64,000 nucleotides of DNA from contig NZ_CP036433.1 in assembly GCF_007751035.1 (NCBI RefSeq), positions 7,855,001 through 7,919,000 on the forward strand, written 5' to 3'. The stretch is from Lignipirellula cremea. GTDB taxonomy: Bacteria; Planctomycetota; Planctomycetia; Pirellulales; Pirellulaceae. The notes below the pieces were generated by a model, which saw nothing but the letters and a program-made list of their open reading frames with translations, was not told the origin of the DNA and made no database searches. Each line of letters begins with the position of its first letter. Position 1 is the first letter of the stretch. Position numbers and translations under genes: made by a program. Positions 60,905 to 64,000 of this stretch are shown one piece after another.

Positions 60905-61218
60905 GCGTCGCCAGGGCAAAAGAAGTGTGCGTCAAGGTGCAGACTCCCCTATAATTCAAGCACCGCCCCACGGCAAGTTTTTGGACAAAACGGTGGGAAA
61001 AAGCGGCCGATCAGAAGGAACAATCGGCGGCGCCCCCTCTTCTGTCGCATGGGCGCTCCTGCCCGTTCCTGTTCGACGACGTCCCGCCAGCACTGCCGCG
61101 AATCCGGATAAACGGCCGCTCTGAACTTGCTGCCAGCTGTGACGCCTTTGGCCGCGCGACCGGGAATCCCGGACGGGCAGGAGCGCCCGATCCTACAGAA
61201 GAGGGAGCGCTTCGCAAG
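60905..61218. other. Non-coding region with inverted-repeat element
   Basis: 314 bp between the pseudokinase stop and the small protein start, both on the minus strand. It is mostly an inverted-repeat pair at 61035-61205. Confidence 0.6.
61035..61205. repeat. 171-bp element with 32-bp inverted ends
   Basis: Left end 61035-61066 and right end 61173-61205 are reverse complements with only a few differences, mainly one base and a small 2-bp change near the middle. The most conserved part is GGGCGCTCCTGCCCG. The 106 bp between have no ORF. This could be a MITE or a chromosomal hairpin. Confidence 0.75.
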
Positions 61219-64000
61219 CTATACCCGCTGTAACGCCAGGACGACTTCGTCCATGGACTGGAAGCGGTCGGCGGGGCGCTTGGCGAGCATTTTGCGGCAG
61301 ATCGTGTCGAGGCGATCGGGAATGTTCGGCCGGATGCTGCGGAGACTGGCGACCGGCGAGGTGCGATGGGCCTGGAGCTTTTCGCGGGAGTTCTGCATCG
61401 GGAACAGCGGACGTCCGGTCAGCAGCGTAAAGAGCGAACAGCCTAGCCCATAGATGTCGGCTCGATGGTCGATGCTTTCGCTGTCCTGCCCTTGCTCCGG
61501 CGCCATGTAATTGAGCGAGCCGACGATCTGGCGCCGGGGCGATTCGGCCTGCGGGTAGGCCGTGTCGCCGGCCAGCAGGGCGATTTCCAGGCCGATCACC
61601 CGGGTCAGTCCGGCGTTGTCGATCAGCAGGTTGGCCGGCTTCACGTTCCGATGGTAGATCCCTTTGGCGTGCAGGTACGACAGCCCAACCGCTGCGTGCA
61701 TCACATAACCGACCACATGCGTTATGGGGATCGGATGAAACTGCTTGAGCAGCGTCATCAGGTCAAAGCCCGGGGCGTGCTCCATGACCATATAACGGAT
61801 GCCGTCGTCTTCGCCGCAGCCCAGCATGCGGACCCAGTTGGGATGGCTGAAGTTCGACAGGATTTCAATCTTTCGCTGGAACTTGGGCATGGGCTCCAGC
61901 ACCCGCACCGTTTCCGGCGACAGGATCTGCACCGTGACCGTTTCGCCTGCCGCGGTACGGGCCTTGAACAGATGGTTCTTGCCGCCGCCCGACATCCGCT
62001 CGATCAGCGTAAAGTTGGCGAACCGCGTCGCCTTGGCGAGCGTGGTGAACCGCCGCGCCAGACGCTCGGTGGCCGGATTCACGGGCGGCAGTTTGTCGTC
62101 AGGCATCGTCGACCGCGGACTGTCTTCCGCCGGTAACGGCGGACCGGCAGGCGGCGTTTCGGATCGCGGCGGCAAGGACAATTGCGTGGTCCGGCCGACA
62201 ACGTGGGAGGGCGGGGCGCCAGCGGCAGGACCATTTCCGCTGACTGCTTTGGCGACGGCCGGCTGCGGGTCGGCGGCAGGGACAATCTCCGGCGCCGATT
62301 CATAATGCGTATCGTTGTCCGGCGGGGGACTGCTGAGCAACGAGGCGATCCGCGGCGGCGCATCAAACTCTTCTTCGAGCGACGCTTTCTGCGCGCGACG
62401 GGCCTCTTCCTCTTCCGATAGACGGGATTGCACCTGGGCCGACAGCGGGATTTCCGGAGAAGCAACGACCGGCAGCGGAGGAGCAACGTCGTCGGGCGCC
62501 GTTTGACGCACCAGCACGCCCTCGACCGGCGCCGCCGCGCGACTCGCTTCCCGCGCGCTGGCCTCAGACAGCTGCGATTCCGCCTGGGACAACAGCGACT
62601 CCAGCTGAATCTGGCGGGACTGCAGACGGTCGTTTTCCGCCTGGGCTGCGGCCGCCTCCTGGCGAACCTGGTCGAGCTGGGTCTGGGCCGCCTCCTGTTC
62701 CGCCAGCCGGGTCGTCTCCGCTGCGGCCAGTTTGCCTTCCTTCGTCTGCAGGCGAGCGTCGAGCGCGGCGTAAGCCGCCGACTGCTCCGAAAGTTCCTGC
62801 TGCAGGCGGGCCTGGGCGGCCGTCAGCTCTTTGTTCTGCTGTTCCAGCGATTGCCGTTGTTGCTGGCTGGCCGCGGTCGCTTCCTCCCAGGACTGCCGGG
62901 CCGTCGCCAGGTTTTGCTGATGCTCCTCACGAGCCGTTTCGGCCGTACGCTGGGCCGTTTCGGCCGCCTGACGGGAGGCTTCGGTCGCCTGCTGCCGCTC
63001 GTTTAACGCAGCCAGTTCCTGCTGCAGGGCGACCAGCTCCTGCTGTTGCGACACCTGCGCTTGCTGTTGCGATTCGCGCTCTTGTTGCTGGGTCGCAAGC
63101 TGCTGCTGGAGCGACTGGATCTCTTGCTGTTGCGAGGTGATCTCTTGCTGCTGGCGACGGTGCTGGTCGGTGGCGAACTGCTCCTGGCTGCCGGCCGCTT
63201 CCTCGAGCAGCTGGCTTGAGGCCGTGAGCTCGCGCGTCAGACGTTCCCGCTCCGCCTGCCAGGCGGCGGCCGCTTGCCGATGCTCTTCTTCCTGCGTCGC
63301 CCAGGTTTGTTCCCGGTGCGTCCAGCGCTGGGCGAGGTCGGCTTGTTCGGTCGCCTGGTCGGCCTGTTGCTGCAGCAGGGCCGCGTGCTGCTGTTTCAGC
63401 TCCTGCTGTTCCTGCTGCAGGGTTGCCAGTTCCTGCTGCAGCGACAGCTGCTCCTGTTCCGCCTGGGCCAGCTGGGCGGCGGCCTGCGTTTGTTCGGCTT
63501 GCCAGTTATCGTGCTGTTCCTGCAGGGCGACGGCCTGGGCGGCTTGCGGTTCCAGATCGGCCAGTCGCGACAGGAAGCCTTGCTGTTTCTGTTCCTGCTG
63601 CGACAGCGCGGCCTGCAGCTGTTCGACCTCCAACAGGGCCGACGTACAGCGTGCTTCGCTTTGCTCCTGGGCGGCGGCGGTAGCGGCCAGGGCCTCTTCC
63701 TGCTTTTTGATGTCGGCGGCCTGGACGGCCAGCTGCTTTTTGAGTTCCTGTTCCTGCTCGCGGAAGGACTGCTCTTCTGCCGCGGCCTGGTTGCGCTGGG
63801 AAGCCAGTTCGGCGGCGACTTTTTCGGCGTCAGCGGTCGCAGCGGCGGCCGCTTCCCGCAGCGGGACGAGAGCCTGCTCGTATTCGTCGGCCTGCAGCTG
63901 GAGCAGTTGCTCGGACTCGGCCTGGGCAGCGGCGGCCTGCTCCTTGGCTGCTTTCAGATCCTGCTGCAGGGATGCGAGCTGGGCCTGCTGGGCCGTCTGT
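61219..64000 (-). CDS. Coiled-coil pseudokinase (5' end outside window)
   Basis: Open across the right edge (no start within 927 codons). The N-terminal part seen is an extremely Gln/Glu/Ala-rich coiled coil of about 500 residues (repeats like QQQEL, EEQRQ). After a Pro-rich linker comes a Ser/Thr-kinase fold (about the last 270 residues), with GGGKNHLFKA for the Gly loop and APEQ and DIYGLGCSLFTLLTG intact. Three catalytic residues are missing: the VAIK Lys is Gln (61927-61929), HRD Asp is Asn in YHRNVKPANLL (61645-61647), and DFG reads GLE (61585-61593). It should therefore bind or scaffold, not phosphorylate. Confidence 0.9.
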   Translation of the reverse strand, partial: QTAQQAQLASLQQDLKAAKEQAAAAQAESEQLLQLQADEYEQALVPLREAAAAATADAEKVAAELASQRNQAAAEEQSFREQEQELKKQLAVQAADIKKQEEALAATAAAQEQSEARCTSALLEVEQLQAALSQQEQKQQGFLSRLADLEPQAAQAVALQEQHDNWQAEQTQAAAQLAQAEQEQLSLQQELATLQQEQQELKQQHAALLQQQADQATEQADLAQRWTHREQTWATQEEEHRQAAAAWQAERERLTRELTASSQLLEEAAGSQEQFATDQHRRQQQEITSQQQEIQSLQQQLATQQQERESQQQAQVSQQQELVALQQELAALNERQQATEASRQAAETAQRTAETAREEHQQNLATARQSWEEATAASQQQRQSLEQQNKELTAAQARLQQELSEQSAAYAALDARLQTKEGKLAAAETTRLAEQEAAQTQLDQVRQEAAAAQAENDRLQSRQIQLESLLSQAESQLSEASAREASRAAAPVEGVLVRQTAPDDVAPPLPVVASPEIPLSAQVQSRLSEEEEARRAQKASLEEEFDAPPRIASLLSSPPPDNDTHYESAPEIVPAADPQPAVAKAVSGNGPAAGAPPSHVVGRTTQLSLPPRSETPPAGPPLPAEDSPRSTMPDDKLPPVNPATERLARRFTTLAKATRFANFTLIERMSGGGKNHLFKARTAAGETVTVQILSPETVRVLEPMPKFQRKIEILSNFSHPNWVRMLGCGEDDGIRYMVMEHAPGFDLMTLLKQFHPIPITHVVGYVMHAAVGLSYLHAKGIYHRNVKPANLLIDNAGLTRVIGLEIALLAGDTAYPQAESPRRQIVGSLNYMAPEQGQDSESIDHRADIYGLGCSLFTLLTGRPLFPMQNSREKLQAHRTSPVASLRSIRPNIPDRLDTICRKMLAKRPADRFQSMDEVVLALQRV

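Follow-up and report, generated by a model that had tools for sequence, protein, structure and literature searches.

The 64,000-nucleotide stretch analysed here (the window; G000:C1:7855001-7919000, from a genome, G000, of 9.57 Mb in a single contig, whose relatives are planctomycetes, some of them Pirellulales) ends inside a long open reading frame on the minus strand. The in-window part of this gene (61219..64000, minus strand) encodes residues ~550-1475 and the stop codon; the frame then leaves the window at its edge, and the genome sequence completes it to position 65646. The full gene, which the preliminary description had proposed to recover from the flanking sequence, was obtained in this way (window-equivalent 61219-65646, minus strand; L001:2220-6647) and encodes a protein of 1475 aa with a GTG start codon that is preceded by GGAGAGG. 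GC3 is 0.72-0.82 across all sections of the gene, matching the neighbouring genes, and the codon-position GC is normal throughout.

The gene is flanked by DUS upstream and by a 96-aa ORF downstream, the latter giving no match in Pfam or NCBIfam. The downstream side also holds an inverted repeat (window positions ~61040-61195), made up of TCGGGCGCTCCTGCCCGTCC and its near complement. The repeat arm has 13 near copies in the genome vs. 0 for a reversed control, and is REP-like. Past the window, at L001:17141-19501, another kinase-like domain heads a longer protein; it is strongly degraded, with Ile for Lys, YGE for HRD and LFG for DFG, and its gene adjoins one for a CpaF/TadA-type ATPase.

From the N- to the C-terminus, the 1475-aa protein comprises an FHA domain, a Gln-rich heptad coiled coil of ~915 residues, a Pro-rich linker and a PknB-like kinase domain, whose last residue, 1475, is also the C-terminal end of the protein. 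The FHA domain (residues 1-98; window-equivalent 65353-65646, minus strand, past the window edge) is an addition to the preliminary description and is predicted to be of the phosphothreonine-reader type. It is detected by Pfam (PF00498, 24.6 bits vs. a cut-off of 20.7) and by profile matching: a profile built from three family members and compared with the PDB matches GarA (E 1.8e-4), FhaA and other FHA structures. Four residues typical of a phosphothreonine site, R29, S44, R45 and N67, are all kept.

The coiled coil spans residues 118-1034 (to window-equivalent 65295, minus strand), its in-window part being residues ~550-1034 (62545..64000, minus strand). It shows a hydrophobic periodicity at 3.5 residues (z = 15.8 vs. 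shuffles) with register shifts, and its composition is highly biased: 200 of the 917 residues are Gln (22%), Ala accounts for 20%, the net charge is -76 and there are 2 prolines in 900 residues. About 500 residues of coil had been described as visible in the window, which agrees with the ~485 found here. The coil had also been said to continue past the window; it does so as far as residue 118, for ~915 residues in total, but is capped on its N-terminal side by the FHA domain. Between coil and kinase domain lies a linker, Pro-rich and of low complexity by sequence (residues 1035-1208; 62023..62544, minus strand).

The kinase domain (residues 1209-1475; 61222..62022, minus strand) is identified by Pfam (PF00069, 119.9 bits vs. 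a cut-off of 31.7), AlphaFold2 (AF2) and Foldseek. Its residues were read from an alignment with 52 related kinases, and the near-invariant catalytic columns (98-100%) are all changed, namely: Q1240 replaces the ATP-binding beta3 Lys (61927..61929; Lys in 100% of the relatives); K1259 replaces the alphaC Glu (61870..61872; Glu in 100%); N1334 makes HRN (1332-1334; 61645..61653) of HRD, whose Asp is present in 100%; and G1352 and E1354 make GLE (1352-1354; 61585..61593) of DFG, whose Asp and Gly are present in 98% and 100%, respectively (all minus strand). The preliminary description had read VTVQIL for VAIK, HRN for HRD and GLE for DFG, and was correct on all three. To these we add K1259 and the Gly-rich loop, S1219-G-G-G-K1223-N1224 (61975..61992, minus strand), in which the first and third glycines of the canonical GxGxxG are lost, as S1219 and N1224, and a Lys is gained, K1223, in a column that holds Met in 90% of the relatives.

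The structural residues that are fully invariant in the alignment are, in contrast to the catalytic ones, kept in 14 of 14 cases, including F1256, H1332, R1333, N1339, the PEQ of the activation segment end (MAPEQ, 1381-1385; 61492..61506, minus strand), the alphaF Asp (D1397) and R1461. Modelling of the kinase domain, which had been called for, gave a confident kinase fold in AF2 (pLDDT 91.4, pTM 0.90), the activation loop being its least confident part. The best solved match to this model in Foldseek is PknB (E 4.7e-22, TM ~0.80), and PknB, StkP and Stk1 are the closest solved relatives of the domain by both sequence and fold. These three are active K/E/D/D enzymes, membrane-anchored and carrying PASTA domains. 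The domain thus has the protein kinase fold and does not have the residue set of active Ser/Thr kinases, the combination by which a pseudokinase is recognized. Alignment and model together support the view that the 1475-aa protein is a pseudokinase, with the fold predicted to be retained and the active-site residues not. Catalysis by this domain is unlikely, since the HRD Asp and the DFG Asp are both gone.

The genome has 72 Pkinase matches, and ~55-60 of the domains readable in full are K/D/D. Only seven full-length kinase domains are not, and the residue combination seen here occurs in only two of them, the second being in another FHA-coiled-coil-pseudokinase of 629 aa (G000:C1:831.9-833.8 kb; LLQVT, HRN, GLE). 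The residue losses are not due to chance, given the ~55-60 K/D/D domains alongside them in the genome and their recurrence in this paralog. A third HRN pseudokinase of the genome (L101:2519-4078; G000:C1:641-643 kb) has a J-like N-terminus, keeps the beta3 Lys, and carries HRNVNPTN and GWG. Further non-K/D/D domains of the genome lie at L267, L268 and L269 (Q/HGD; R/HRG/EYG; Y/HRG/NWQ, respectively), outside the clade described below.

To find relatives, we ran profile searches on the family (241 genomes) and on the order (397 genomes). The members fall into an FHA type (two in G000, plus G034, G001 and G023) and a type whose N-terminus is short and J-like (FDPYYxWLGIPPxxQPPNHYRLLG; G000, G441, G431, G381 and G003). 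HRN is found in all ten, so that Asn is invariant at the HRD Asp; in nine of the ten the alphaC Glu is replaced by Lys or Arg and the DFG Asp by Gly, and eight keep the beta3 Lys. In a tree with the catalytic columns masked, the members form one clade (SH-aLRT 95 for 9 rows without G003, 87 for 10 rows with it). When at least 33 nearby rows are added, the clade has an SH-aLRT of 93; 46 of the 48 added rows that were checked are K/D/D, and the sole Q/N/G row among those added is the G000 paralog represented a second time. The idea that the 1475-aa protein is a one-off gene was rejected on the basis of this paralog and the HRN clade.

A phylum-wide profile search at a strict cut-off gave no new member genome among the 6 candidates scored per genome, a limit that makes the rarity of the clade approximate. 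Candidates from a scan of genome contigs for more members were discarded: they are active HRD kinases wherever the motif is readable, because the second pattern of the scan is the common APE region. These active kinases served as the AF2 alignment and the reference set.

End branches inside the clade are 0.26-0.94, like those of active kinases. Together with the invariant Asn at the HRD Asp, these ordinary branch lengths argue for constraint and not decay. That the gene is a decaying, non-functional kinase, as the loss of five catalytic positions might suggest, is scarcely credible when its frame of 1475 codons is intact with normal codon-position GC, its structural invariants are kept, and its losses are shared with the paralog and are of old common origin across genera. 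The earlier description of a pseudokinase with a kept fold is therefore borne out by catalytic columns that are lost, structural columns that are kept and a clade that is evolutionarily stable. As read from the tree, the catalytic loss is old and appears stepwise, in an order that depends on the less well supported placement of G003: the HRD Asp first (G003), then the alphaC Glu and the DFG Asp, and finally the beta3 Lys and the DFG Gly. The last losses are confined to the two FHA proteins of G000.

The span between the two domains is 190-320 residues in the relatives, and the G023 member has no heptad signal between its domains; the long coil is thus not conserved. No part of the family varies more than the coil, whereas both ends are conserved. 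A rod can therefore not be essential to the function of the family, and the conserved pair would be the FHA domain and the pseudokinase, with the long rod an elaboration in the 1475-aa gene. This bears on whether the protein might be an intermediate-filament-like structural element, in which the coil does the work, passively capped by the FHA domain at one end and the kinase-like domain at the other. Cytoskeletal proteins built of coiled coil are known from bacteria (PMC2680258), and a very long, Gln-rich and acidic coil with register shifts would suit such a role. We nonetheless consider it improbable, given a coil that varies most in the family and is absent in G023 between ends that are conserved, and that resembles no named filament family. 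A relation of the coil to SMC proteins was likewise rejected, as the matches to SMC coils are weak and probably compositional.

The gene neighbourhood is not conserved between the locus described here, where DUS adjoins the gene, and that of G023, where a GAF-HlyD adaptor gene follows the FHA-pseudokinase gene by 30 bp (L097:3107-6816). The divergent neighbour of the G023 gene is another degenerate kinase (HGD, NLG).

The preliminary description had cautioned that catalytic residues might be replaced from elsewhere in the domain, as in WNK kinases. A candidate for such a replacement was indeed found, in the form of a Lys gained by the Gly-rich loop (K1223) and a Glu in place of the DFG Gly (E1354), but both catalytic Asp residues are absent. 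K1223 and E1354 are confined to the two G000 proteins lacking the beta3 Lys, and are absent from the 8 other members of the clade. K1223 lies two residues before beta2 in the AF2 model, and is one residue before the WNK position; in WNK1 the Lys of the Gly loop is that of GRGSFK (PMC2639636). A precedent is POMK (SgK196), which has Ser for the beta3 Lys and Gly for the alphaC Glu; its phosphate-binding Lys stands at the start of beta2 and forms an ion pair with an Asp that replaces the DFG Gly (PMC5142810). Both proteins have thus lost the beta3 Lys and the alphaC Glu and have a Lys near the start of beta2 and an acidic residue at the DFG Gly. The difference is that POMK is active, keeps its metal-binding Asp and phosphorylates a sugar, whereas here the HRD Asp and the DFG Asp are lost.

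Because K1223 and E1354 accompany the loss of the beta3 Lys in a manner that recalls the POMK pair, loss of ATP binding is not a given; the two residues are suggestive of ATP binding that may persist, and not of activity. The domain might then be a nucleotide-sensing pseudokinase, which would bind ATP without catalysis via K1223 and E1354 and whose occupancy would switch a scaffold. We regard this as possible, if rather doubtful. The restriction of both residues to the two proteins lacking the beta3 Lys is what one would expect of it, as are the POMK and WNK1 precedents. However, the three changes fall on a single branch, so that any coupling between them is conjectural; POMK retains the DFG-type metal Asp where Gly is found here; K1223 is one residue off the WNK position, and K1259 adds a further positive charge; and VRK3, whose Gly loop is likewise degraded and whose HRD Asp is also replaced by Asn, does not bind ATP.

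Cryptic kinase activity of the domain through a migrated active site, of the WNK, CASK or POMK type, is very unlikely. WNK has lost the Lys and CASK the DFG Asp (GFG) with activity kept (PMC2639636), yet both retain the HRD Asp, and the domain described here has lost the HRD Asp, the DFG Asp, the beta3 Lys and the alphaC Glu alike, with every member of the clade having Asn at HRD. Even HER3, which has HRN and no alphaC Glu but keeps the Lys and DFG, is only weakly active.

On balance, and with somewhat better than even confidence, we propose that this catalytically dead FHA-coiled-coil-pseudokinase is an elongated signalling scaffold or an allosteric adaptor or regulator. The FHA domain would dock on a phosphothreonine produced by any of the many active Ser/Thr kinases of the genome, for which the ~55-60 K/D/D kinases could be the suppliers. 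The ~915-residue coil would form a rod-like oligomer that spaces the two ends by up to ~135 nm when fully extended. At the C-terminus, the pseudokinase, locked in a kinase-like state, would bind and then position or regulate a protein partner, which might be a phosphatase, an active PknB-like kinase or the substrate of such a kinase. We infer phosphothreonine binding, oligomerisation, partner binding and lack of catalysis from the following: the FHA match is above the cut-off and keeps the Arg, Ser and Asn that usually contact phosphothreonine; the heptad periodicity is strong; and the catalytic positions are changed and 14 structural ones kept in a confidently predicted fold and a constrained clade. 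Against the scaffold stand the lack of conservation of the gene neighbourhood and of the long coil, and the nucleotide binding that K1223 and E1354 leave possible. A more specific form of the proposal, which we hold to be unlikely, is that this is a planctomycete-specific family in which the pocket was rebuilt in one lineage (K1223/E1354), giving a catalysis-free ATP-sensing head, a rod oligomer and a phosphothreonine-reading end, i.e. a nucleotide-gated, phosphorylation-targeted scaffold in a single chain.

The bacterial Ser/Thr pseudokinase families set out in a 2025 review are ActPs1-3, GLW, CP1, DYD and DLHK, with planctomycetes absent from it (PMC12599244), and a study of the planctomycete kinome sorts kinases by the presence of K/D/D, the word pseudokinase being absent (PMC11032199). 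We found no earlier description of the HRN planctomycete clade in a literature search that was thin on subscription papers. Among the reviewed families, ActPs2 of actinobacteria is alike in being a bacterial Ser/Thr pseudokinase in which HRD has become HRN and all three catalytic motifs are altered (PMC12599244). In ActPs2, however, Lys has become Arg, DFG is deleted, there are long insertions in the beta3-alphaC region and the activation loop, and a TM segment is common; the 1475-aa protein has Gln for Lys, GLE for DFG, an FHA domain and a coiled coil, and a 280-residue domain without such insertions. MviN/FhaA of M. tuberculosis (ActPs3, PMC12599244) is likewise a bacterial pseudokinase that works with an FHA domain, but there the FHA domain is on a separate protein that binds the phosphorylated tail of the membrane protein MviN, and here both are in one chain. 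Eukaryotic parallels exist for individual residues, namely: HGN or HRN for HRD (VRK3, HER3), VAIQ (EphB6) and GLR for DFG (STRAD) (PMC2639636). These proteins have no architecture in common with the 1475-aa protein, and the changes are convergent only. What the planctomycete clade offers is a defined group in which ordered losses can be read on a tree and a phospho-reader is present in the same chain, making the role of non-catalytic kinase folds in bacteria testable in a single-gene system.

The FHA subtype itself is not confined to these proteins. It is matched in 178 of the 397 genomes of the order, usually once per genome, and was rejected as a marker of the kinase family, the members inspected being FHA-cyclase proteins; the FHA domain is accordingly shared or recombined. 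The role of the subtype at the head of cyclase proteins looks worth a separate study. One such protein (L065:3378-5153), of ~600 aa, has the same FHA subtype at its head and a class III cyclase domain. A 961-aa protein of the same genome, with 4Fe-4S motifs (L066:2911-6877), is likewise headed by the subtype, and its gene adjoins one with three cyclic-nucleotide-binding matches.
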